Shown: piece after piece, positions 1 through 50,824 of the stretch | Numbering within the stretch: the stretch's first letter is position 1 | How the letters are laid out: every line of letters starts with the position of its first letter | NCBI GenBank assembly: GCA_021325215.1 | Contig: JAJPHO010000131.1 | Coordinates: 1 to 57,877 of the forward strand | From: Alphaproteobacteria bacterium | GTDB lineage: Bacteria; Pseudomonadota; Alphaproteobacteria; Rhodospirillales; Magnetospirillaceae | DNA length: 57,877 nucleotides | Direction of reading: 5' to 3' | The notes under the pieces: model-generated | Databases searched by the model: none | Seen by the model: only the letters and a program-made list of their open reading frames with translations | What the model was told of the DNA's origin: nothing | Translations under genes and position numbers: made by a program

Positions 1-231
1 CAGATGCCGCTCCCGATTCGCTATAAAGGGGAGGATCTGGACTGCGATTACCGTCTCGATCTCGTGGTTGAAAATTCGCTTATCGTAGAAATAAAATCCG
101 TAGAGAGTTTTGCACCGGTTCATTCTGCACAGATGCTGACCTATCTAAAGATTTCCGGCATCAAAACCGGCTTATTGATCAACTTCAACACTGCCGTCCT
201 AAAAGATGGCCTGCGGCGCTTTGTATTATGA
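1..231 (+). CDS. GxxExxY family protein, 3' fragment (cut by window edge)
   Basis: This is the C-terminal 76 residues of an ORF that is already open at base 1, so the start lies outside the window. The core around residues 18-31, with Asp-Leu-Val-Val-Glu followed by Ile-Val-Glu-Ile-Lys, fits the D/ExK part of the PD-(D/E)XK-like fold assigned to GxxExxY proteins (PF13366 type). The His-x-Ala-Gln-Met-Leu-Thr-Tyr-Leu stretch and the ending Leu-Leu-Ile-Asn-Phe-Asn are also typical. The family's biochemical role is not established; nuclease activity is only suggested by the fold. It ends 14 bases before an 8-bp-period tandem repeat, and the polysaccharide operon starts 53 bases downstream. Confidence 0.75.
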   Translation, partial: QMPLPIRYKGEDLDCDYRLDLVVENSLIVEIKSVESFAPVHSAQMLTYLKISGIKTGLLINFNTAVLKDGLRRFVL

Positions 232-244
232 AACACTTTCATCT

Positions 245-274
245 TCTTCGTGTCTTCGTGTCTTCGTGGTGAAA
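245..274. repeat. 8-bp-period tandem repeat, TCTTCGTG x3 plus GTGAAA
   Basis: Three perfect tandem copies of TCTTCGTG at 245-252, 253-260 and 261-268 are followed by GTGAAA. On the minus strand it reads TTTCAC then CACGAAGA x3. The same pattern (TT..ACC edge followed by units of CRCRRAGR) recurs at 7924-7939 and 39629-39761. It lies between the GxxExxY stop and the FkbM start codon, close enough to affect the leader of the downstream operon. Confidence 0.85.
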
Positions 275-14604: not shown

Positions 14605-15008
14605 ATTCCCGCCGGGGCCTCACCCCCGAACGCTTCGTCGCCCTGGTCGACGAATTCCGTCAGAAGATCACGCGGGAGCGCTTCGTCGCCCGCCTGACCG
14701 AGGTCAAGCAGGACGAGCTGATCGATCTGGTCAAGCTGCAGGCCGAAGTGCGGGCCCGCTATTTCATGACGGTGCTGGATCTGGTGCAGCCCAACCTGGC
14801 CGACATCGAGGGCAAGGTCGAAGAGGCCCGCTTCTACCGCGAGATGGCCGAGGAAATCGCGCTCGGCGTGCAGGCGGTGGCCACCGCCGTGCTGGCCAAG
14901 GAAATCCCGGTGCCGGGCCTCGACCATGGCGACGAAATGAGCGCCGAACTCGAAAAAGCCCTGCAGGACTTCATCAAGCGCAGCGACGAAGGCGACTGGG
15001 AATATTAG
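14601..15008 (+). CDS. Conserved-looking hypothetical protein (135 aa), coupled to previous gene
   Basis: 135 residues, strongly alpha-helical and charged, without membrane segment or signal peptide. Features include Arg-Phe-Val-Ala repeated near residues 11 and 28 and an acidic C-terminus ending Glu-Gly-Asp-Trp-Glu-Tyr. I cannot assign a function. The ATG overlaps the preceding stop (ATGA). Downstream lies copy A of the dispersed double-hairpin element and then the convergent manC. Confidence 0.7.
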   Translation: MNSRRGLTPERFVALVDEFRQKITRERFVARLTEVKQDELIDLVKLQAEVRARYFMTVLDLVQPNLADIEGKVEEARFYREMAEEIALGVQAVATAVLAKEIPVPGLDHGDEMSAELEKALQDFIKRSDEGDWEY

Positions 15009-15024
15009 TGGGACAATCCGCCTT

Positions 15025-15132
15025 ACGGCCGCAAATGCGGCCGCGCGCTGCCGGCAGCCGCGGCGCAGAGTCGGTATAGGTTGGCGCGGTAGCCCAGGCC
15101 ACGGAGTGGCCGCCCGGCGCCTGAGGGACTAA
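15025..15132 (+). repeat. Dispersed double-hairpin element, copy A
   Basis: Stem 1 is GGCCGCA/TGCGGCC (15027-15042). A conserved linker with GCGCGCTGCCGGCAGCCG follows, then GGTATAGGTTGGCGCGGTAG, then stem 2 GGCCAC/GTGGCC around loop GGA (15097-15111), and the constant edge CCCGGCGCCTGAGGGACTAA. It fills the gap between the 135-residue gene and manC. The manC stop codon (minus strand TAG) is formed by bases of the edge. Confidence 0.85.
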
Positions 15133-16547
15133 ACTCTACCGTAAGTATCCTCGTAGCGGACGATATCGTCCTCGGACAGATAGGTCCCTGACCGCACTTC
15201 GATCAGCTTCAGCGGAACCTTGCCGGGATTCTCCAGCCGGTGCTTGGTGCCGACCGGAATGTAGGTCGATTCATTCTCGCGCAGCAGGAAGGTCTCGTCA
15301 TTGCGCGTGATCAGGGCGGTGCCCTCGACCACGACCCAGTGCTCGGCGCGGTGATGATGCATCTGCAGGGACAGCTTGGCGCCCGGCTTGACGGTGATCT
15401 GCTTGACCTGGAACCGCGTCCCGGAATCGACGCTCTGGAAATAGCCCCACGGCCGATAGACCTTGCGGTGCAGATCGCCCTCGGTGCGCTTGCGCTCCTT
15501 CAGCGATTCGACGATCTTCTTCACTTCCTGCACATGGCGGCGCTCGGCGACCAGAACGGCGTCCTCGGTGGCCACCACGATGATGTCGCGGAGGCCGACG
15601 CCGGCGACCAGGACCCCGTCGCCGCGCAGGTAGCTGTCGTGGCAATCCACGGAAATGACGTCGCCCACCTCGACATTGCCGGCCTGGGTCTTGCCGGTGA
15701 TGTCCCACAGGGCCGACCAGGAGCCGACGTCGCTCCAGCCGAAATCGGACGGAACCACGGCGGCGCGCTCGGTATGCTCCATCACCGCATAATCGATCGA
15801 GGCCGACGGCGCGCGGCCGAAAGCCTCGGCGTCGAGGCGCAGGAAGTCGATATCGGCGACGGCATGGTCGATCGCCGGCGCGACCGCGTCAAGGATGTCG
15901 GGGCACAGGCGCTTGACCTCGTCGAGGAAGACCGAGGCCTTGAACACGAACATGCCGCTGTTCCACAGGAATTCCGGCTGCGCCGTCATGGCGCGGGCGC
16001 GTTCGAGATCGGGCTTTTCGATGAAGCGCTCGACCTTGAAGCTGCCTTCGGTCAGCGCGGTTCCGCGCTGAATATAGCCATAGCCGGTTTCCGGCGCGGT
16101 CGGCTTCATGCCGAAGGTGACCAGATGGCCGGCCGCCGCGGCGTCGCCGGCCAGCTCGAGGGATTTGAGAAAGCCGGGCTGGTCGCCGATCACGTGATCG
16201 GACGGCAGCACCACCATGATGGCTTCGGGAGCGATCGATTGCAGGATCAACGCGGCGGCGGCGATGGCCGGCGCGGTGTTGCGGCCGACCGGCTCCAGCA
16301 CCAGGCGCAGCGGCTTGATGCCGATTTCCTGCATCTGCTCGGCGACGATGAAGCGATGCGCCTCGTTGCAGATGATCAGCGGGCCGGCAAACCGGCCCTT
16401 GCCGGCGCGCAGCGCGGTTTCCTGGATCATCGTCCGTTCGGACGACAAGGGAAGCAGCTGCTTGGGATACAGCGAACGGGACAGCGGCCACAGGCGGCTG
16501 CCCGATCCGCCGGACAGGATGACGGGGTAGAAGGTTCGGTCGCTCAT
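15129..16547 (-). CDS. manC: Mannose-1-phosphate guanylyltransferase / mannose-6-phosphate isomerase
   Basis: 472 residues, the usual length for the bifunctional type II enzyme. Residues about 5-290 are the nucleotidyltransferase: Ser-Gly-Gly-Ser-Gly-Ser-Arg-Leu-Trp-Pro-Leu-Ser-Arg at the N-terminus and Phe-Ile-Glu-Lys-Pro further on. The C-terminal ~120 residues are the cupin isomerase domain, with Pro-Trp-Gly-Tyr-Phe and a metal-binding His-His-His-Arg-Ala-Glu-His. It makes GDP-mannose and mannose-1-phosphate precursors. The ATG at 16547 starts right before the family's conserved N-terminus; the frame open to 16631 is read-through of noncoding sequence. The phosphomannomutase upstream on the same strand supplies its substrate. 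Confidence 0.95.
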   Translation of the reverse strand: MSDRTFYPVILSGGSGSRLWPLSRSLYPKQLLPLSSERTMIQETALRAGKGRFAGPLIICNEAHRFIVAEQMQEIGIKPLRLVLEPVGRNTAPAIAAAALILQSIAPEAIMVVLPSDHVIGDQPGFLKSLELAGDAAAAGHLVTFGMKPTAPETGYGYIQRGTALTEGSFKVERFIEKPDLERARAMTAQPEFLWNSGMFVFKASVFLDEVKRLCPDILDAVAPAIDHAVADIDFLRLDAEAFGRAPSASIDYAVMEHTERAAVVPSDFGWSDVGSWSALWDITGKTQAGNVEVGDVISVDCHDSYLRGDGVLVAGVGLRDIIVVATEDAVLVAERRHVQEVKKIVESLKERKRTEGDLHRKVYRPWGYFQSVDSGTRFQVKQITVKPGAKLSLQMHHHRAEHWVVVEGTALITRNDETFLLRENESTYIPVGTKHRLENPGKVPLKLIEVRSGTYLSEDDIVRYEDTYGRV

Positions 16548-21191: not shown

Positions 21192-21217
21192 GCAACGAAC
21201 CCACCGCCCCCCTTTCC

Positions 21218-21370
21218 GGCGTGCAAGTGCACGCCCGCGCTGCCGACAGCGTCGATCACACAGGCGGTATAGCTTGGCGCGGTAGCCCAGCGGCACGCAT
21301 GCTTGGCATGCGATCATTAAGCTTGGTCGGCCAAGCCGACCGGGGCCGCGCCCGGCGCCTGAGGGACAAA
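21218..21370 (+). repeat. Dispersed double-hairpin element, copy B (long variant)
   Basis: Stem 1 is GGCGTGC/GCACGCC (21218-21235), followed by CCGCGCTGCCGACAGC, then GGTATAGCTTGGCGCGGTAG. Stem 2 is replaced by a longer branched unit closed by GCGGC/GCCGC that holds CATGC/GCATG and GGTCGG/CCGACC hairpins. The edge is CCCGGCGCCTGAGGGACAAA, ending six bases before the ABC exporter start codon, so GAGGGA is that gene's likely ribosome-binding site. Confidence 0.85.
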
Positions 21371-21376
21371 ATTTAA

Positions 21377-23116
21377 ATGAGCTTCTTCACTCTTTACAGC
21401 CGGGTGCTCGGGCAGCTTAAGCCCGAGCGCACCCTGGCGATCATTCTGACCCTGGCCAATCTCGGCGTGGCCGGCCTGCAATTCGTCGAGCCGATCATGT
21501 TCGGCAAGGTGGTCGACACATTGTCCTCCGCCGCCCGGCACACCGCCGAGGAAGTCTGGCACGAAAGCTTTCATCTGCTCGGCCTGTGGGCGGTGATCGG
21601 CGTCGGCGGCATCCTGGCCAATGTGCTGGTGGCGCTGCATTCCGACCGCATGGCCCATCGCCGCAAGCTGGCCGCCATGGCGCAATATTTCGAGCATGTG
21701 CTGGAACTGCCGCTGGCCTATCACCTCGATACCCATTCCGGCCGCCTGATCAAGATCATGCTGCAGGGCGCCGACAACATGTTCGGCATCTGGCTGTCCT
21801 TCTTCCGCGAGCATCTGTCGACCTTCATCGCGCTGATCGTTCTGCTGCCGATGTCGATGTTCATGAATTGGCGGCTGGGGCTGGTGCTGATCGTCCTGCT
21901 GGTGGTGTTCGCCGTGCTGTCGATCCTGGTCATGATGCGCACCGAAGGCGCCCAGCGCGAGGTGCAGGAATTCCATTCCGAGCTGGCCGAACGGGCCGGC
22001 GACGCCCTCGGCAATGTCGGCCTGATCCAGAGCTTCGTGCGTTTGGCCCTCGAAGTGCAGCAGCTCGGCCAGGTGATGGGCAAGGTCCTGGCCGCGCAAT
22101 ATCCGGTGCTGACCTGGTGGGCGATGGTCACCGTGCTGACCCGCGCCGCCTCGACCCTGACCGTGATCACCATCTTCACCCTCGGCACCTGGCTGTTCCT
22201 GCATGGCCAGACGAGTGTGGGCGAGATCGTCAGCTTCATGGGCTTCGCCAATCTGCTGATCGGCCGCCTGCAGCAGGCGATGGGCTTCGCCAATACCCTG
22301 TTCTTCCAGCAGCCCGGCCTGAACGATTTCTTCTCGGTGCTCGACGCCAAATCCGCCGTGGCCGAGAAGCCCGGCGCCACCGAGCTGGGCCGCGTGCAGG
22401 GCCATGTGACCTTCGAGAATGTCAGCCTGTCCTATGGCGACAAGCAAGCTGTGACGGGCCTTAATTTCGACATCGCGCCGGGCAGCATGGTCGCCCTGGT
22501 CGGCACCACCGGCGCCGGCAAAAGCACCGCCATGGCGCTGCTGCATCGCCTGTGGGACCCGCAGACCGGCCGCGTCACCATCGACGGCCTCGACATCCGC
22601 GACGTCACCCTGTCGAGCCTGCGGCGCAATATCGGCGTGGTGTTCCAGGAAAGCACCATGTTCTACCGCACCATCGCCGAGAATCTGCAGGTCGGACACC
22701 CCGACGCGACCGAGGCCGAACTGATCGAGGCGGCGACGCTGGCCGAGGCGCATGAATTCATCATGGCCCAGCCCAACGGCTATCAGACCCTGGTCGGCGA
22801 GCGCGGCCGAACCCTGTCGGGCGGCGAGCGCCAGCGCATCGGCATCGCCCGCGCCTTGCTGAAGAATCCGCCGATCCTGATCCTCGACGAAGCGACCAGC
22901 GCGCTGGATTCGGTGACCGAGGCCAAGGTGCAGAAAGCGCTGAGCGCCCTGATGAAGGGCCGCACCACCTTCGTCATCGCCCACCGCCTGTCCACCATCC
23001 GCGACGCCGATTGGGTGCTGGTGATGGATAAGGGCCGCATCATCGAACAGGGCCGCTATGACGATCTGGCGAAAGCCGGCGGCGCCTTCACCGGCCTGTT
23101 GAACCGGGCCGGCTGA
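21377..23116 (+). CDS. ndvA: Glucan exporter, ABC transporter fused permease/ATPase (NdvA/ChvA-like)
   Basis: 579 residues, an ABC half-transporter. Residues about 15-300 contain six membrane segments; residues about 335-575 form the ATPase with Walker A Gly-Thr-Thr-Gly-Ala-Gly-Lys-Ser, the signature Leu-Ser-Gly-Gly-Glu-Arg-Gln-Arg, Walker B Ile-Leu-Ile-Leu-Asp-Glu-Ala and the H-loop Ile-Ala-His-Arg. The N-terminus and overall length resemble the cyclic beta-1,2-glucan exporters NdvA/ChvA, which move the glucan to the periplasm. The specific substrate is inferred: no glucan synthase is in the window. Translation probably starts from the ribosome-binding site in repeat copy B. Confidence 0.85.
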   Translation: MSFFTLYSRVLGQLKPERTLAIILTLANLGVAGLQFVEPIMFGKVVDTLSSAARHTAEEVWHESFHLLGLWAVIGVGGILANVLVALHSDRMAHRRKLAAMAQYFEHVLELPLAYHLDTHSGRLIKIMLQGADNMFGIWLSFFREHLSTFIALIVLLPMSMFMNWRLGLVLIVLLVVFAVLSILVMMRTEGAQREVQEFHSELAERAGDALGNVGLIQSFVRLALEVQQLGQVMGKVLAAQYPVLTWWAMVTVLTRAASTLTVITIFTLGTWLFLHGQTSVGEIVSFMGFANLLIGRLQQAMGFANTLFFQQPGLNDFFSVLDAKSAVAEKPGATELGRVQGHVTFENVSLSYGDKQAVTGLNFDIAPGSMVALVGTTGAGKSTAMALLHRLWDPQTGRVTIDGLDIRDVTLSSLRRNIGVVFQESTMFYRTIAENLQVGHPDATEAELIEAATLAEAHEFIMAQPNGYQTLVGERGRTLSGGERQRIGIARALLKNPPILILDEATSALDSVTEAKVQKALSALMKGRTTFVIAHRLSTIRDADWVLVMDKGRIIEQGRYDDLAKAGGAFTGLLNRAG

Positions 23117-35286: not shown

Positions 35287-36531
35287 GGCGTAATCCGCCA
35301 CGTTCTCCAGCGGCCCGATGGCGGCGAAGGTCGGCGGGGTGGTGAACAGGCGGTTCGCCACCTTCACCACGGCGGCCTCGTCGACCGCCTCGATCCTGGC
35401 GACCACTTCCTCGATGCTTTGAATGCGGCCATGCACCATCAATTGCCGCGCCAGCTGCTCGCAGCGGGCATTGGTGCTTTCCAGCCCCATCAGGATGCCG
35501 GCCTTGATCTGGGCGCGCGAGCGGCGCACCTCCTCGGCGGTAACGCTTTTCATCACCTTGCGGACTTCTTCGCAGATCACCGGCACCACTTCGGCGGATT
35601 CATCCGCGCCGGTGCCGGCATAGATCGAGAACAGGCCGCCGTCCGACAGTGACTGGCTGAAGCTGTAGACCGAATAGGCCAGGCCGCGGCGTTCGCGCAC
35701 TTCCTGGAACAGGCGCGAGCTCATGCCGCCGCCCAGCAGGCCGGACAGCACCGACATGGCGTAGTAATCGGGGTCTTCATAGGCGACGCCATCGAAGCCC
35801 AGCACCACATGGACCTGTTCGAGGTCGCGCTCTTCGCGGTAATCGCCGCCTTCATAGCGGGCCGGCTCTTCGCTGCCGGCACGCGCCGGCGCAAGGCCGG
35901 AGAAATGGCGCTCGGCCTCGGCGACGATGGAATCGTGGTTGAGATTACCGGCGGCGGCCAGGATCATCGTTCCCGAACCGTAATGATCGCGCATATAGCC
36001 GGCCACGGTCTTGCGGCTGAAGGAGCGGACCAGCTCCGCCGTGCCCAGCACCGGGCGTCCGACCGCCTGTTGCGGAAAGGCGGTGGCCTGGAAATGATCG
36101 AAGATGATGTCGTCGGGCGTATCGATCGCCTGGCTGATCTCCTGCACCACCACCGCCTGCTCGCGGGCCAGCTCGTCGGGATCGAGGCTGGAATGCTGCA
36201 GGATGTCGGCCAGGATATCGATACCCAGGCCGGTATCCTCCTTCAGGATCTTGGCGTAATAGGCGGTGTGATCGCGGCTGGTATAGGCGTTGAGCAGGCC
36301 GCCCACCGCCTCGATCTCTTCGGCGATCGCCTGGGCCGTGCGGCGCTCGGTGCCCTTGAAGGCCATATGTTCCAGCAGATGCGAGATGCCGTTGATCTCG
36401 GCCGCTTCGTGGCGGGTGCCGGCATTGACCCAGACGCCCAGGGAAACGGTCTCGACCGACGGCATATGGTCGGTGATCACCACCATGCCGTTCGACAGCT
36501 TGCTCTGCTTGATGTCCAGCGCGGTGCTCAT
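35260..36531 (-). CDS. M16 family zinc peptidase (mitochondrial-processing-peptidase-like)
   Basis: 423 residues, one M16 module pair. Gly-Ile-Ser-His-Leu-Leu-Glu-His-Met-Ala-Phe-Lys-Gly-Thr near residue 50 carries the inverted zinc motif HxxEH, and a distal Glu follows about 75 residues later. Gly-Leu-Ala-Tyr-Ser-Val-Tyr-Ser near 285 is the conserved substrate-binding Arg-Arg-Gly-Leu-Ala-Tyr region. The family is close to the mitochondrial beta-MPP. The ATG at 36531 is preceded by GAGGGA from repeat copy C, the probable ribosome-binding site. thrC lies upstream on the same strand, an arrangement common in this class. Confidence 0.93.
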   Translation of the reverse strand: MSTALDIKQSKLSNGMVVITDHMPSVETVSLGVWVNAGTRHEAAEINGISHLLEHMAFKGTERRTAQAIAEEIEAVGGLLNAYTSRDHTAYYAKILKEDTGLGIDILADILQHSSLDPDELAREQAVVVQEISQAIDTPDDIIFDHFQATAFPQQAVGRPVLGTAELVRSFSRKTVAGYMRDHYGSGTMILAAAGNLNHDSIVAEAERHFSGLAPARAGSEEPARYEGGDYREERDLEQVHVVLGFDGVAYEDPDYYAMSVLSGLLGGGMSSRLFQEVRERRGLAYSVYSFSQSLSDGGLFSIYAGTGADESAEVVPVICEEVRKVMKSVTAEEVRRSRAQIKAGILMGLESTNARCEQLARQLMVHGRIQSIEEVVARIEAVDEAAVVKVANRLFTTPPTFAAIGPLENVADYASIRESLLA

Positions 36532-36537
36532 ATTTCT

Positions 36538-36644
36538 TTGTCCCTCAGGCGCCGGGCGCGGCTTCCAGCCGCTAGGCTTCCGCGCCAAGCTATGTTGCCT
36601 GTGTAATTTCGGCTGTCGGTAGCGCGGGCGTGCAGTCGCACGCC
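36538..36644 (-). repeat. Dispersed double-hairpin element, copy C
   Basis: On the minus strand stem 1 is GGCGTGC/GCACGCC, then CGCGCTACCGACAGCCG, then CATAGCTTGGCGCGGAAGCC, stem 2 GCGGCT/AGCCGC with loop GGA, and the edge CCCGGCGCCTGAGGGACAAA. It fills most of the thrC-M16 gap and ends six bases before the M16 start codon, so GAGGGA serves as its likely ribosome-binding site. Confidence 0.85.
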
Positions 36645-36673
36645 TGCAACGAATTTTCGGGAAAATTCCTTGC

Positions 36674-38078: not shown

Positions 38079-39560
38079 TCAGGATGCGTAACGGGCGCGC
38101 AGATGCGCCTTGAAGATTTCGGCGTCGAGCGGCTTGCCGGTCGCCTGGCGCAGCAGCTCGTCGGTGGAATAGCGCGAGGCCTTGCCGTGCACGTTCTCGC
38201 GCAGCCAGCCCAGCAGCGGCGCGAAACGGCCGGCGGAGAGGTCTCCGTCGAGGTCGGGCAGCGCCTTGCGCGCCGCGTCGAACAGCTGCGCGGCGGTCAT
38301 GGCGCCCAGCGTATAGGTCGGGAAATAGCCGAACGCGCCGTCATACCAGTGGATGTCCTGCAGACAGCCCAGCCGGTCGTCGGGCGGGACGATGCCCAGC
38401 AATTCCTCCATGCCCTCGTTCCAGGCGGCGGGCAGATCGGCGACCGACAATTCGCGGGCGATCAGCGCCTGTTCGAGCCGGAAGCGCAGGATGACATGGG
38501 CGGGATAGGTCACTTCGTCGGCATCGACGCGGATGAAGCCGGGCTCGACCCGCATGGTGGCGTTATAGAGCTGGTCGGCATCCCAGCCGCTGCGGCCGAA
38601 CTGCCGCGCCAGCTTGGGCGCGGCGAAGCGGAAGAAGGCGCGCGAACGGCAGGCCTGCATTTCCATCAGCAAGCTCTGGCTCTCATGCACGCTCATGCCG
38701 CGCGCCTTGCCGACCGGCTGATGGCGCCATTGCTTGGGCAGGCCCTGCTCATACAGCGCATGGCCGGTCTCGTGGATCACACCGAACAGGCTGGTGATGA
38801 AGTCTTTTTCGTCATAGCGCGTGGTGATGCGCACATCGTCGGGCGTGCCGCCGCAGAAGGGATGCAAGCTCTCATCCAGGCGGCCATGGTCGAAATCGAA
38901 GCCGAGCGATTTCATCATTTCCAGGCCGATTTCCTTCTGCACCGCCTGCGGAAACGGACCTTCCGGCGCGGCCGGGGCGGCGCCCTGCTTCTTCAGCACC
39001 TCGGCCAGGAAGCCCGGCAGGAAACCGGCCAGATCGGCGAACACCCGGGCGATGTCGGCGGAGCGCCCGCCCGGCTCATACTGATCGAGCAGCGCGTCAT
39101 AGGGCGAGACGCCCAGCGCCTGCGACTTGATCTCGGCCATCTCGCGGGTGAGGTCGAGCAAAATGCTCAGCGGCTCGATCACCTGCCTGAAATCGGCGGC
39201 AGGCCGGGCCTTGCGCCACACCATCTCGCAGGACGAGCCGGCGCGGGAGAGTTTCTCGACCAGCTCGGCGGGAACGGCGGAAGCATGCAGCCAGTCGCGG
39301 CGCATCTCGCGCAGATTGGCGGCTTTCCAGCCTTCCAGGCCTTCCTGCTCGGCAGCCTTCAGCCACTCCTCTACCTCGGGCGCGACCAGCAGGTCGTGGC
39401 CGAGACTGGCCAGGCTGGCAAGCTGTTCGCCGCGCGATTCGGCGCCGCCTTCGGGCATCACGGCCGACATGTCCCAATGCAGGAAACCGGAGGCCTGGTC
39501 GAGATGGGAAAGCTTGGCGAAGCGGCTTTCGAGCCGCGCATAGGCGGTGTTGCTGGTCAT
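38079..39560 (-). CDS. M32 family metallocarboxypeptidase
   Basis: 493 residues, the normal length for M32 (thermostable carboxypeptidase Taq type). Gly-Val-Ile-His-Glu-Thr-Gly-His-Ala-Leu-Tyr-Glu-Gln near residue 262 is the HExxH zinc site. His-Glu-Ser-Gln-Ser-Leu and Thr-Tyr-Pro-Ala-His-Val-Ile-Leu-Arg downstream are also family-specific. It removes C-terminal residues from peptides in the cytoplasm. I take ATG 39560; the frame stays open to 39674 but there the residues Ala-Pro-Leu-Arg-Leu-Cys-Gly come from translating the CGCAGAGG repeat. Confidence 0.93.
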   Translation of the reverse strand: MTSNTAYARLESRFAKLSHLDQASGFLHWDMSAVMPEGGAESRGEQLASLASLGHDLLVAPEVEEWLKAAEQEGLEGWKAANLREMRRDWLHASAVPAELVEKLSRAGSSCEMVWRKARPAADFRQVIEPLSILLDLTREMAEIKSQALGVSPYDALLDQYEPGGRSADIARVFADLAGFLPGFLAEVLKKQGAAPAAPEGPFPQAVQKEIGLEMMKSLGFDFDHGRLDESLHPFCGGTPDDVRITTRYDEKDFITSLFGVIHETGHALYEQGLPKQWRHQPVGKARGMSVHESQSLLMEMQACRSRAFFRFAAPKLARQFGRSGWDADQLYNATMRVEPGFIRVDADEVTYPAHVILRFRLEQALIARELSVADLPAAWNEGMEELLGIVPPDDRLGCLQDIHWYDGAFGYFPTYTLGAMTAAQLFDAARKALPDLDGDLSAGRFAPLLGWLRENVHGKASRYSTDELLRQATGKPLDAEIFKAHLRARYAS

Positions 39561-39628
39561 CAAGCTGTTATCGCCGCCCAGGGCTTTGGAGACAAGGAAA
39601 TCTGACATCTCCGGGCGGCCAGGACTGA

Positions 39629-39761
39629 TTGAACCGCAGAGGCGCAGAGGCGCAGAGGGGATTGAGTGGTCCAAAGCGCCCGCGGCATTTCCTCATGGGA
39701 TTAATGCCGCAGGCGCCTCGTCCGCGCGTTGCCTCTGCGCCTCTGCGCCTCTGCGGTTCAA
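39629..39761. repeat. Perfect 30-bp inverted repeat built from three 8-bp units per arm
   Basis: The left arm (39629-39658) is TTGAAC followed by three CGCAGAGG units; the right arm (39732-39761) is its exact inverse, three CCTCTGCG units then GTTCAA. The 73-base centre holds a second, imperfect inverted pair (CGCCCGCGGCAT and ATGCCGCAGGCGCC). It sits between the M32 and RlmD-like genes, both on the minus strand. The units share their 8-bp period and edge with the repeats at 245 and 7924. Confidence 0.9.
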
Positions 39762-39772
39762 ATATGCGCCGA

Positions 39773-41056
39773 TTACCGCTGAAAAACCGCCACGGCTTCG
39801 AGATGGGCGGACCAGGGGAATTGATCGACCGGGGTTGCCTTGATCAGCTTGTAGCCGGCATCGGCCAAGGTCGCCGCATCGCGCGCCAGGGTGGCGGGAT
39901 TGCACGACACCGCGACGACGGTCGCCGGGCCGCCCTTGGCGATCTGCTCGGCCTGGGCGGCGGCGCCGGCGCGCGGCGGGTCGAAGATCACGGCGGCGAA
40001 CGGCTTCAACTCATGGGCCAGAAGCGGCTGGCGGGCGAGGTCGCGATGGACCGCCGTGATCGCCAAGCCGACACGGCGGGCGGCGGCGCCCAGCGCGCCG
40101 ATGGCGGCGGCGTCGCCTTCGACGGCGGTCACGGCACGGCCTTTCGCCAGCGGGAAGGTGAAACTGCCGCTGCCGGCATAGAGATCGAGAATGGCGCCCT
40201 GGGCCGGCAGATATTCCTTGACCAGCGCGACCAGCGCCGCCTCGCCCTCGCGGGAAGGCTGCAGGAAACCGCCGGGCGGAATGTCGACCGAGACCTCGCC
40301 CATGGTCACCTGGGCCGGGCGGCGATGCGCGACCGGCTCGGCCAGATCGCCCTTCTGCCAGGACAGGCGGGCGAGGTCCTGGGCTTCGGCGAAGCTGGCC
40401 AGCTTTTCGCGGGCAAACAGGTCGAGTTCATGCTCGGTCTGGATGACGAGGTCGATGCCGCTGTCGGTCAGGGTGGTCAGTGCGTCGCCGGTGGTGCCGG
40501 TCGGCAGGATTTCCGTCAGCAGCGTGCGCAGCGGCGCCAGCAGGGCCAGCAGCGCGGGCGCCAGCAGCAGGCAGGGATCGACTTCGACGATGTGACGGCT
40601 GGCGCGCTCGTTGAAGCCGATCACGACGCCCTTGGCCAGGCGTGTGAAGGCGAAGGCGGCGCGGCGGCGGGTGCCGGGGGCGATGGAGACCAGCGGAGCG
40701 ATCAGGCGGCTGTCGAATTCGACGCGGGTCAGGGCGGTGACCAGGCGCTCGCGCTTCCAGTCGGTCAGCGCCTCGTCGGTGATATGCTGCAGATTGCAGC
40801 CGCCGCATTGGCCGAACAGCGGGCACGGCGCGTCGCGGCGGGTCGGACCGGGCGTGACCAGTTCGGCCATGCTGGCGGTGAAGCCGTCGGCGCGGCGGCC
40901 TTCGAGGCGCGCGACGATGCGATCGCCCGGCGCGGTAAGCGGCACGAAGACCTGCTCGCCGTCGAATTTGGCGAGGCCGTCACCCCGGGCACCAATGGCG
41001 AGGATGTCGAGGTCGACCGTGCGGGTGCGGAACGGCGGCGGCTTACGGTTCTTCAT
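39773..41056 (-). CDS. RlmD/RumA-like RNA m5U methyltransferase
   Basis: 427 residues. The N-terminal ~60 residues resemble a TRAM domain. Cys-Pro-Leu-Phe-Gly-Gln-Cys-Gly-Gly-Cys near residue 77 plus a later Asp-Pro-Cys supply the four cysteines of the iron-sulfur cluster. Leu-Asp-Leu-Tyr-Ala-Gly-Ser-Gly-Ser-Phe is the SAM loop, Phe-Asp-Pro-Pro-Arg-Ala-Gly follows, and Val-Ser-Cys-Asn-Pro-Ala-Thr holds the catalytic Cys. It methylates uridine C5 in rRNA (or tRNA); the exact target cannot be read. It overlaps the previous gene by four bases. Confidence 0.9.
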   Translation of the reverse strand: MKNRKPPPFRTRTVDLDILAIGARGDGLAKFDGEQVFVPLTAPGDRIVARLEGRRADGFTASMAELVTPGPTRRDAPCPLFGQCGGCNLQHITDEALTDWKRERLVTALTRVEFDSRLIAPLVSIAPGTRRRAAFAFTRLAKGVVIGFNERASRHIVEVDPCLLLAPALLALLAPLRTLLTEILPTGTTGDALTTLTDSGIDLVIQTEHELDLFAREKLASFAEAQDLARLSWQKGDLAEPVAHRRPAQVTMGEVSVDIPPGGFLQPSREGEAALVALVKEYLPAQGAILDLYAGSGSFTFPLAKGRAVTAVEGDAAAIGALGAAARRVGLAITAVHRDLARQPLLAHELKPFAAVIFDPPRAGAAAQAEQIAKGGPATVVAVSCNPATLARDAATLADAGYKLIKATPVDQFPWSAHLEAVAVFQR

Positions 41057-42534
41057 GGGCGGGACAATACACACAGAAGGCCGGGCACCGGGTCACCTTT
41101 TTCGCGGCGGGTGACGGTGGGTTCCAGCAGGGTTACGGAAAAGCCGGTCTCGCCGGCAAGACGGCGGAGATAGGAGTCGGCGTGGGCGAAGCGGCCGGTC
41201 GGCTGCAGGGTATAACCCTCACCCTCTCCGCGCTCGACGGTGAAGGCGAAATGGCCGGCGGCCCGCAAGGCTGTGCGCGCGGCGGCGAAGACCGGCGCTA
41301 GGTCACCGAGATAGATCAGCACGTCGGCGGCGATCACCAGATCATAGGACGCGGAACGCCCCGCCATCTCCGGCACCAGATCGCCGACCGCGACCGAATC
41401 ATAGACGCCGCGGGCGCGCGCCTGGTCGGCCATTTTTTCGGAGAGGTCGATGCCGTCGAGGCGGCGCGCCAAAGGCTTCACCGCCAAGCCGGCGAGGCCG
41501 GTGCCGCAACCGGCATCGAGAATGTCGCACGGCCCGGCGATGCCGGCGCGGCGCAGGCCGTCGAGGATCACCTCCGGACCGCGATAATCGAGATTGCCCA
41601 GCAAATCCTGATCGAAACTGCCGGCATATTGGTCGTATAACGCGCTGACATGCGCCGCCGAAGCCCGCTCCGGCACAGCGCTCTGGCCGAGCTTGGCGAG
41701 AGCGAGCTGGGCGCCAAAGCTGTCGGCAGGATCGAGGGAGAGAACGCGGTCATAGGTGACCGCGGCCTCGTCGGTGCGGCCCAGACGGACCAGCGTTTCA
41801 CCCAGCAGCCAGTGCGGCTCCGCCTGATCCGGCAACAGACGCACCGCTTCGGCGAATTGCTCGATCGCGGCTTCGTCGGGGAGCGACTGCCCATACTCGA
41901 TCCGGCACGCCGCATCCTCCGGCGCGATCCGCACCGCGAACTCCGCCGCCCGTCCGGCTTGCCCGAGCTTGCGCTGAACGCCGGCCAAATTGGCGTAAGG
42001 CTTGGCGGTCGAGGGATCGAGGATCACGGCAATGCGAAACTCTTCGGCCGCCCGCTCGGGATTGCCCGAAGCGCGCTCCGCGATACCGAGATTGTTGCGC
42101 AGCGGCGCCAGCGCCGTCCACACACGGGCGGAGCGGCGCAGCGGCATGGCGGCGGCGGCGAAATCCTGGCCGGCGATATGCAGATCGCCCAGTTCGCGCC
42201 AGGCGACGGCGAGATCGGGCGCGACCGCCAGCAGACGGCGATAGGCGGTGATGCCCTCGATCAGCCGGTTCTGCTGAATTTGCGCGCGCGCCATGGCCAG
42301 CATGGGCGGCACGGCGTCGGGGGTTTTGGCCAAAGCGCGGGAAAGATGCTGGGCGGCTTTTTTGCCCTGCCCTTCCTTGAGCGAGATCAGGCCGAGCAGA
42401 TAGGGGAGAGCCTGCGGTTCCGGCCGTCGGCTTTCCAGCGAGCGGGCAAGCTTGCGCGCCTGCTCGATGCGTCCGGCATCAAGATGCGCAAAGGCCTGCG
42501 AGAGGGCCTGCTCGACGGAAATCTGCTCCTTCAT
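41053..42534 (-). CDS. TPR-repeat protein fused to a SAM methyltransferase
   Basis: 493 residues. Residues about 5-285 contain some seven to eight tetratricopeptide repeats with Ala-rich helices. Residues about 320-470 are a class I methyltransferase: Ile-Leu-Asp-Ala-Gly-Cys-Gly-Thr-Gly-Leu is the SAM loop and Asp-Leu-Val-Ile-Ala-Ala-Asp-Val-Leu-Ile-Tyr-Leu-Gly is motif II. The substrate is unknown; the TPR part may present a protein. ATGA overlap with the RlmD-like gene indicates coupled translation. A terminator separates it from recA. Confidence 0.85.
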   Translation of the reverse strand: MKEQISVEQALSQAFAHLDAGRIEQARKLARSLESRRPEPQALPYLLGLISLKEGQGKKAAQHLSRALAKTPDAVPPMLAMARAQIQQNRLIEGITAYRRLLAVAPDLAVAWRELGDLHIAGQDFAAAAMPLRRSARVWTALAPLRNNLGIAERASGNPERAAEEFRIAVILDPSTAKPYANLAGVQRKLGQAGRAAEFAVRIAPEDAACRIEYGQSLPDEAAIEQFAEAVRLLPDQAEPHWLLGETLVRLGRTDEAAVTYDRVLSLDPADSFGAQLALAKLGQSAVPERASAAHVSALYDQYAGSFDQDLLGNLDYRGPEVILDGLRRAGIAGPCDILDAGCGTGLAGLAVKPLARRLDGIDLSEKMADQARARGVYDSVAVGDLVPEMAGRSASYDLVIAADVLIYLGDLAPVFAAARTALRAAGHFAFTVERGEGEGYTLQPTGRFAHADSYLRRLAGETGFSVTLLEPTVTRREKGDPVPGLLCVLSRP

Positions 42535-49942: not shown

Positions 49943-49996
49943 GGAAAATTTTGCCGGGCAAATGCCCAAAAAACAGGCATATCAAGTATCGCACCC

Positions 49997-50105
49997 GGGC
50001 CGCAAGGCGGCCCCGCGCGGCCGACAGCCGAAGTCAAGAAACAGGGATAGCTCGGCGCGGTAGCCAAGACGGCTGAAAGCCGTCGCCCGGCGCCTGAGGG
50101 ACTAA
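49997..50105 (+). repeat. Dispersed double-hairpin element, copy D
   Basis: Stem 1 is GGGCCGC/GCGGCCC with loop AAG (49997-50013), then GCGCGGCCGACAGCCGAA, then GGATAGCTCGGCGCGGTAGC, stem 2 GACGGCT/AGCCGTC with loop GAA (50068-50084), and the edge CCCGGCGCCTGAGGGACTAA. It lies between fliP and flgB, which are both on the opposite strand. The fliP stop (TAG on the minus strand) falls in the edge. Confidence 0.85.
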
Positions 50106-50824
50106 CCGAAGCTTTGTACCAGCGAGCCGGCGATCAGGTACCAGCCATCCACCAGCACGAAGAAAATCAGCTTGAACGGCAGGGAAAAGGTGGCTGGCGG
50201 CAGCATCATCATGCCCATGCTCATCAGCACCGAGGCGACCAGCATGTCGATCACGAGGAACGGCAGATAGATTAAAAAGCCGATCTCGAAGGCGCGTCTC
50301 AGCTCGCTGATCATGAAGGCCGGGATCAGCAATTGCAGCGGCGTGTCTTCCGGCTTCTCGACCATCGGCGTGTGCGACAGGTCGAAGAACAATTTGATGT
50401 CCTGGTCGCGCACCTGCTTGATCATGAAGGCCGAGACCGGCTTGGTGGCGCGCGAGAAGGCCTCCATCTCGTCGATCTTGTTGCTCATCAGCGGCTGCAG
50501 CGCGTCGTGATAGACGGCTTCCAGGGTCGGCGACATCACGAAGCCGGTCAGGAACATCGCCAGGGACACGATCACCATGTTGGGCGGCGCGGTCGCCGTG
50601 CCCATCGCCTGGCGCAGGAAGGACAGCACCACGACGATGCGGGTGAACGAGGTCACCGTGACCAGGATCGCCGGGGCGATCGACAGCACCGTGATCAGGA
50701 CGATCAGCTGCACCATGCGGCTGGTGGTCGAGCCGCCTTCGCCGAGGTCGAGGGAGAATTGCTGCGCCGAGGCCGGCAGCGCGGCCAGCATCAATCCAAG
50801 CGCGACGAGCAGGCGCTGCTTCAC
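50102..50824 (-). CDS. fliP: Flagellar export gate protein FliP
   Basis: 240 residues. Residues 1-20 form a cleavable signal peptide (ending Ala-Ser-Ala), a known FliP oddity. Then come Arg-Ile-Val-Val-Val-Leu-Ser-Phe-Leu-Arg-Gln-Ala-Met-Gly, Met-Phe-Leu-Thr-Gly-Phe-Val-Met, and Ile-Pro-Ala-Phe-Met-Ile-Ser-Glu-Leu-Arg-Arg-Ala-Phe-Glu-Ile-Gly-Phe. Pentameric core of the export gate. It overlaps fliO by four bases. Confidence 0.96.
   Translation of the reverse strand: MKQRLLVALGLMLAALPASAQQFSLDLGEGGSTTSRMVQLIVLITVLSIAPAILVTVTSFTRIVVVLSFLRQAMGTATAPPNMVIVSLAMFLTGFVMSPTLEAVYHDALQPLMSNKIDEMEAFSRATKPVSAFMIKQVRDQDIKLFFDLSHTPMVEKPEDTPLQLLIPAFMISELRRAFEIGFLIYLPFLVIDMLVASVLMSMGMMMLPPATFSLPFKLIFFVLVDGWYLIAGSLVQSFG

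Follow-up and report, generated by a model that had tools for sequence, protein, structure and literature searches.

A palindrome of tandem 8-bp units as a candidate gene-less member of a GxxExxY-nuclease element family

A palindrome between two genes

The window analysed here is a stretch of 57,877 nucleotides, contig C143 of an alphaproteobacterial genome (G000, the source genome) of 4.88 Mb in 195 contigs. A palindrome at 39629-39761 lies between two minus-strand genes, with the following layout.

38079..39608, minus strand: M32 carboxypeptidase (Taq) gene (PF02074, E 6.7e-165), 39608 being a possible start
39629..39658, plus strand: left arm, 30 nt, with three CGCAGAGG units at 39635-39658
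39676..39690, plus strand: core hairpin, left half (GCGCCCGCGGCATTT)
39702..39716, minus strand: core hairpin, right half
39732..39761, minus strand: right arm, the exact reverse complement of the left arm, with units at 39732-39755
39773..41074, minus strand: RlmD/RumA-like 23S rRNA uracil methyltransferase gene (TIGR00479, above its cut-off)

An earlier note on this DNA described a perfect 30-bp inverted repeat with three 8-bp units per arm and a nested palindrome, and re-measurement reproduced this exactly. The arms are 100% complementary over 30 nt each and are separated by 73 nt, the 8-bp CGCAGAGG unit is exact in all three repeats of each arm, and the inner inverted pair is imperfect. 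Folded as single-stranded DNA, positions 39625-39765 reach -62.6 kcal/mol (z = -12.55), a value attained by none of 200 dinucleotide shuffles. No target-site duplication is visible flanking the palindrome. The left arm lies 20 nt from the possible M32 carboxypeptidase start at 39608, although a start near 39560 is likelier; an open reading frame called from 39674 would extend this gene into the palindrome. The palindrome is open in several frames and yields peptides such as MNRRGAEAQRG and SAPLRLCGS, and gene callers may extend or invent open reading frames across such elements.

The right arm begins 11 nt after the rlmD-like stop codon, and a strong hairpin in that position could be a regulatory palindrome or terminator of the flanking operon or, given the associations described below, of a GxxExxY gene; gene-bearing copies elsewhere also sit just after stop codons. 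However, the stem is followed by no T tract, there are no terminator-like sites in 39400-40000, and an Rfam search of the whole window at gathering score placed nothing on the palindrome, its sole match being a distant tRNA. Like arms also surround a nuclease gene at other loci. Locus DNA has matches in 53 further genomes of the family, chiefly within the two neighbouring genes, and among the matches listed none has the palindrome at this place; the arms themselves appear there only in the source genome and, away from this locus, in G629 and G023. The earlier note had allowed for a plain terminator, unique in the genome and conserved at its site, and what we find is a multicopy sequence not seen at the site in the relatives' listed matches. 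We therefore regard a terminator or regulatory role as improbable, and a terminator effect may arise as a by-product of the palindrome. Sub-threshold Rfam matches on the palindrome (microRNA, snoRNA, sRNA) were taken as chance hits on a long hairpin.

Copies and GxxExxY genes in the source genome

A search of the source genome for like arms, as the earlier note had suggested, was productive. The 16-base arm pattern with at most two mismatches gave 46 matches, against 18 for the reversed pattern, part of which may be other unit arrays. Ten two-armed, gene-less copies with CGCAGAG units were delimited (C1, C36, C38, C60, C71, C73, C74, C130, C143, which is the window, and C145), those on C1, C38 and C60 being shorter or worn. 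C17 has one damaged copy, and solitary arm-like stretches lie at C1:5375, C7:54704 and C60:20126. Flanking DNA varies from copy to copy. With at most one mismatch, the arm pattern occurs in 8 of 41 genomes (the source genome and 40 relatives), and more than one such match is found only in the source genome (34) and in G032, of the same order (36).

The long copy on C92 is of a different kind. Over 448 bp, its CGCAGAG-type arms enclose a GxxExxY gene (PF13366, TIGR04256) with no internal stops, and its arm sequence GAACCGCAGAGGCGCAGAAGCGCAGAGG differs from GAACCGCAGAGGCGCAGAGGCGCAGAGG of the window at one position. Among the arm-bearing loci examined in this genome, a survey that copies missing from the assembly could escape, a gene lies between the arms in C92 only, and it matches the nuclease family only. 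A protein search of 31 source-genome stretches and the window element likewise found a trace of the GxxExxY protein only in C92. The palindrome in the window thus has arms of CRCNNA-X units, 8-10 bp apart, in common with a GxxExxY-bearing copy in its own genome, which is the criterion by which we define the GxxExxY-arm element family.

Six PF13366 matches in the source genome, two of them halves of one gene, correspond to five loci. The earlier note likens the palindrome to two other sites that it does not name; another exact 8-bp tandem array of three units is found in the window only at 245-268, and it belongs to one of the five GxxExxY loci.

C92: CGCAGAG-type arms around the gene
C135: 42 matched bases in arms made of CACGGACGGA units, at a GxxExxY gene
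C39/window start: TTTCACCACGAAGACACGAAGACACGAAGA ahead of the gene on C39, mirrored by an exact inverse at window 245-274
C103: CACAGATTT palindrome next to the gene but not enclosing it
C60: CACAAAG/CACGAAG palindrome next to the gene, followed by a second piece of gene
Window 1..231, plus strand: 3' part of a GxxExxY gene (PF13366/TIGR04256), the 5' part of which is at the end of contig C39 (L055)
Window 245..274, minus strand: right arm of the window-start element, TCTTCGTG three times, then GTGAAA

The assembly break between C39 and the window falls inside a gene-bearing GxxExxY element, and the end of C39 and the start of the window overlap in gene sequence. At G000:C60:53700-54597 (L052), the gene and a piece of a second copy stand in tandem with a unit palindrome between them, up to a contig end. 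Four of the five gene loci (C92, C39/window start, C135 and C103) have gene-less palindromes of their own unit elsewhere in the genome. Gene-less CACGAAG palindromes lie on C7, C37 and C40 (twice), CACGGAC palindromes on C31, C104, C125, C157 and C171, and CACAGAT palindromes on C5, C37, C86, C184 and C193; no short arm pairs were delimited at the CACGGAC places on C13 and C142 or the CACAGAT places on C134, C145:49285 and C76.

Bacterial MITEs are gene-less derivatives of insertion sequences, and target-site duplication is absent in some MITE families. The window palindrome resembles them in being short and gene-less, in sharing its inverted repeats with a gene-bearing element of its own genome, and in having several gene-less copies in unrelated flanks. 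It differs from an insertion-sequence-derived MITE in that no transposase was found in the gene-bearing relative and no target-site duplication was seen, and in that a core hairpin is common to different arm families (see below).

A second comparison is with REPtrons, in which an enzyme gene is framed by palindromes like its dispersed copies. On this account a REP-associated tyrosine transposase of the HUH class (RAYT/TnpA-REP) would have spread the palindrome as a REP/BIME-like unit. In its favour, the palindromes are dispersed, intergenic and built around an inner hairpin, like arms frame an enzyme gene, and gene-bearing relatives show no target duplication. REP sequences (treated also in PMC12306157) are defined in PMC8266576 by a tetranucleotide, most often GTAG, at the foot of a palindrome of 20-50 nt. 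The foot of the present arms reads CTGATTGAACCGCAG...CTGCGGTTCAAATAT, without GTAG, and the arms are arrays of 8-bp units. The earlier note's miniature transposable or REP-pair-like unit survives in outline, as a multicopy sequence not seen at the locus in the 53 relatives among the matches listed. The agent that the note proposed to look for, a REP-associated tyrosine transposase, is not supported at the arm-bearing loci examined: the only gene found between these arms in the source genome, that of C92, belongs to a predicted PD-(D/E)XK nuclease family and not to the HUH transposases. The arms of the wider family differ from REP sequences too, in being arrays of spaced 7-bp units with a last base that tracks the protein clade. 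We consider a REP origin extremely unlikely.

The nuclease and its arms across bacteria

The Pfam and NCBIfam models for GxxExxY assign no role to the family. A full-text search of the open literature, a body that leaves most subscription papers and all preprints outside, returned no description linking GxxExxY to such arms, and looking for the arm sequences led to unrelated papers only; the name or Pfam accession receives a passing mention in one passage each of PMC9756366, PMC8934634 and PMC12085832. No homologous sequence for the protein was found in the PDB at E <= 1. A structure model of L116, which is 67% identical to the C60 protein, was predicted with high confidence (pLDDT 95.1, pTM 0.86). 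Its nearest solved structure is SSO0001 (4ic1; Z 9.8 over 101 residues), which we take to be a Cas4, followed by a series of PD-(D/E)XK enzymes with Hjc at Z 7.0, although Z values near 7 may reflect common fold arrangements and the structural matches are to generic PD-(D/E)XK enzymes. Foldseek returned like kinds of enzyme, including resemblance to Hjc and lambda exonuclease, none at E <= 0.001, and PADLOC gave only weak Cas4 (E 0.0013) and RT-PDDEXK matches. Across 36 sequences D61, E71, K73 and Y89 are among the invariant residues and Q85 is nearly invariant, a set that fits a PD-(D/E)XK core; the Q85...Y89 pattern presumably corresponds to the QhxxY motif of RecB-family and Cas4 nucleases. 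The median dN/dS was 0.097 over 22 gene pairs at 70-98% protein identity (pairs with usable dS, some with a common member), indicating that the protein is maintained by purifying selection. GxxExxY is therefore predicted to be a small PD-(D/E)XK nuclease with a Cas4/Hjc-like fold. The predicted fold, the weak Cas4 profile match and the QhxxY motif liken it to Cas4, lambda exonuclease and Hjc; in contrast to these, no CRISPR or phage setting was noted, the core is about 117 amino acids, and the gene is encoded alone between unit-array arms.

The association of gene and arms extends far beyond the source genome. In GTDB species genomes, 80 named GxxExxY loci were located. They are the best matches among at least 585 relatives and represent Pseudomonadota, Planctomycetota, Bacteroidota, Chloroflexota, Cyanobacteria, Verrucomicrobiota, Acidobacteriota and others. 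A flank inverted-repeat score was obtained by aligning the 400 bp upstream of each gene with the reverse complement of the 400 bp downstream. It reached at least 15 in 47 of the 74 loci counted (median 17) but in only 3 of 267 displaced windows from the same loci (median 9); six further loci with a flank of 200 or less were dropped, two of which score at least 15. Mispaired flanks, a second control, reached this score in 21 of 371 cases, above the displaced-window count because mispaired flanks have units in common. Of 185 collected genes having both flanks, 127 score at least 14, a threshold below that of the controls, which were run at 15 or more only; decay, contig ends or a real lack of arms may account for the other 58, which have no arm pair at 14. 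Beyond the source genome, loci were chosen by their GxxExxY gene, and all these figures thus describe genes with arms and not the contents of arms in general. We hold with great confidence that the nuclease gene and its arms are inherited together as a single unit.

The arms follow a simple grammar, being arrays of a 7-bp unit, CRCNNA followed by a variable base X. In the 105 upstream arms at loci with a flank score of at least 16 there are 286 CRCNNA motifs, against a mean of 75 and a maximum of 93 in 200 dinucleotide shuffles, and 156 of 187 successive unit spacings are 8, 9 or 10 bp. The seventh base is mostly G, T or A, with C in two loci, and follows the type of protein: GLLES proteins go with CRCNNAG, GFLEKVYENAL with CRCNNAT and GFLEAVYQECM with CRCNNAA. 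Placed on a tree of 103 proteins, the seventh-base label changes 6 times, against a mean of 26.4 for shuffled labels, none of 200 shuffles being as low. Because the shuffle ignores kinship, this result shows that arms and gene travel together; recognition of the seventh base by the protein is only suggested. The tree holds 103 of the 127 arm-bearing genes, the 24 omitted having fewer than three countable units or units that differ in their last letter, among them C92 of the source genome (L032; 4 G, 2 A). Exceptions kept in the tree are L158 (GLLES-type with A units), L229 (GFLE-type with G units) and L246, L268 and L280 (GLLE without S, with T units). Other arm units altogether, of CAGGATT or CATCCC types, are found at L230, L241 and L256.

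Across whole genomes the association is looser. PF13366 occurs in 19 of 289 Alphaproteobacteria. A strict array pattern, three CRCNNAG units at 8-bp spacing, matched 34 of these genomes and its reversed control 36, so single array matches are background, and an apparent single-match association with PF13366 (10/34 versus 9/255, p 6e-6) was set aside on that ground. At least three array matches were found in 17 genomes, and at least three control matches in 4, all of them among the array genomes. PF13366 is present in 6 of the 17 against 13 of the 272 others (p 2.8e-4), in 5 of 15 against 13 of 273 without the source genome and G205, in which 24 array matches resemble one tandem repeat (p 0.001), and, in genomes of at least 4 Mb, in 6 of 9 against 9 of 71 (p 0.001). 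Control-match genomes are likewise enriched for PF13366 (8/36 versus 11/253, p 7e-4). One contribution to this comes from arrays that, once shifted, fit the control pattern; another, we think, comes from genome size. It is the locus-level linkage of arm and gene, and not this genome-level association, that carries the case. In 11 of the 17 genomes with at least three array matches no GxxExxY gene was detected (for example G297, with 39 matches, and G206, with 20); if the nuclease-element reading is true, gene-less copies persist longer than the gene.

Mobility and the proposed element class

Presence or absence of elements differs clearly between related species. Among 23 genomes searched in the genus of G345, 14 have the two flanks of one element site together. 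G345 has the element intact and G339 has it with slight wear; it is decayed or has palindromes added in G365, G461 and G477, a gene remnant with or without another palindrome remains in G433, G439, G357 and G497, and other DNA without a recognisable element occupies the site in G361, G333, G423, G342 and G658. In L306 and L309 (G461 and G477), extra palindromic sequence adjoins the left-arm GCAGAT unit within the decayed GxxExxY element, hinting that existing units could act as insertion targets. In the genus of G569 (121 genomes), where both flanks were found together in 4 of 29 fetched loci and 25 of the 29 were without one flank, G569 itself has a complete element. G667, with flanks 95.8 and 97.4% identical to those of G569, has at the orthologous site a gene-less element with like ends and spacing, in which the units read CACAACG in place of CACGAAG, a concerted change. 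The site holds 76 bp in G761, 54 bp in G714 and other DNA in G758. At the orthologous site, immediately next to the element that G667 carries there, G569 has about 425 additional bp. Several short elements of G667 and G569 have a multicopy sequence of about 570 bp as their neighbour (L403 about 2160-2681, L366 about 973-1480, L384, L387, L393 and L401). Between fabD and fabG an element is present in Sphingomonas parapaucimobilis, and in S. paeninsulae fabD and a fabG-like start are about 30 nt apart, a comparison that is not base-precise. No base-precise empty site was found in the source family, the genera of G345 and G569 or plasmid records, where junctions had diverged or the DNA differed.

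The target duplications that the earlier note proposed to look for were not found. None of 84 gene-bearing elements has an adjoining direct repeat of at least 3 bp (1.24 expected), and permitting small offsets gave a mean of 1.99 against 1.93, the chance level. Carriage as phage or plasmid cargo was considered and rejected: tblastn with the C60 protein (E <= 1e-5) matched 0 of 50,697 phage and 8 of 72,556 plasmid records, and a scan of IMG/VR gave 3 loci, these phage and plasmid searches covering the near relatives of that one protein.

Mechanical ORF calling places 55 of 72 gene-bearing elements between two ORFs that share the element's strand, 4 between two on the opposite strand, and 8 and 5 in the mixed arrangements. 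They start a median of 8.5 nt after the upstream stop and end 21 nt before the next start, and 19 of them have an arm that runs into an adjacent ORF call. Annotated neighbours include radA and an FAD-protein gene in Bacteroides finegoldii, adenine deaminase and mannose-1-phosphate guanylyltransferase genes in Bernardetia, and fabD and fabG in S. parapaucimobilis. The same-strand bias would be explicable if the gene is read from a host operon, or by transcription-coupled insertion. Of 18 gene-less elements in the source genome, the window's included, 9 are in co-directional, 6 in convergent and 3 in divergent ORF settings.

The inner hairpin does not follow the arms. Of 17 elements with CGCAGAG, CACGAAG, CACGGAC or CACAGAT arms, 16 contain a core of GCGCCTGCGGCAATC or GCGCCGCAGGCAATC (at most 3 mismatches). 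The core is missing from both CACAGATTT elements, and 44 out of about 2000 random 80-mers drawn from the window contain it; the two patterns had been picked after the elements had been inspected. This common core was seen at source-genome loci L431-L449 and in the CGCAGAG copies. Arms seem tied to the family and cores to the host, as though copies recombined or were made by template switching, and simple mobilisation in trans gives no account of a core common to different arm families.

These patterns give some weight to an explanation in which palindromes spread by template switching and recombination and the gene hitch-hikes, its product merely tolerating or processing them as a palindrome repair nuclease. 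Many array-bearing genomes without the gene, the core hairpin common to several arm families, the concerted change of units at an orthologous site and the likeness to Hjc and lambda exonuclease would all sit well with it; the concerted change, seen in another genus, would also favour active maintenance, one of the two causes (the other being recent formation) to which the earlier note ascribed the identity of the arms. Against it, the arms bound the gene itself, beyond mere presence in the same genome, and the arm letter tracks the protein clade across phyla. We think hitch-hiking unlikely, if well worth keeping in mind.

We favour instead a reading of the window's palindrome as one of the gene-less, MITE-like members of a GxxExxY-nuclease element family, and consider this, together with the following mechanism, probable. 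Members of the family are laid out as an array of 7-bp units, then the GxxExxY gene or a short core hairpin, then the inverted array. The nuclease would bind the units of both arms, the 8-10 bp spacing setting them near one helix face or along one hairpin stem, and would cut or trim the element ends in a palindromic or single-stranded form. Host repair or replication would then join the copy elsewhere, without target duplication and often in intergenic DNA just after stop codons, and gene-less copies with matching arms would be mobilised in trans. Binding, cutting and mobilisation by the nuclease are steps that we infer.

A bolder proposal, which we put forward tentatively and consider possible rather than probable, is that these loci represent an undescribed class of mobile element spanning phyla. 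Its Cas4/lambda-exonuclease-like GxxExxY protein, acting with neither transposase nor integrase, would read 7-bp arrays by a one-letter code in which the clade sets the last base of CRCNNA-X, and would disperse its own gene together with swarms of palindromes that lack one, with no duplication of the target. If that class is real, scattered palindromes of CACAGAG, CACGAAG, CGCAAAG, CACGGAT and kin would be its footprints. Were GxxExxY to drive this common class of repeat, an orphan family would gain a role and DNA mobility without a classical transposase would gain an example; many short palindromes, and the spurious gene-caller peptides on them, would be accounted for, and the seventh-base correspondence would offer a handle on protein-DNA recognition.

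A different repeat was also seen in the window, in four copies of about 110-165 nt at 14980-15150, 21200-21390, 36520-36660 (minus strand) and 49960-50120. It has conserved blocks such as GGCGCGG.AGCC and CGCCCGGCGCCTGAGGGAC with a variable stem between them, gave no Rfam match at gathering score, and is possibly a structured RNA or another palindromic repeat.
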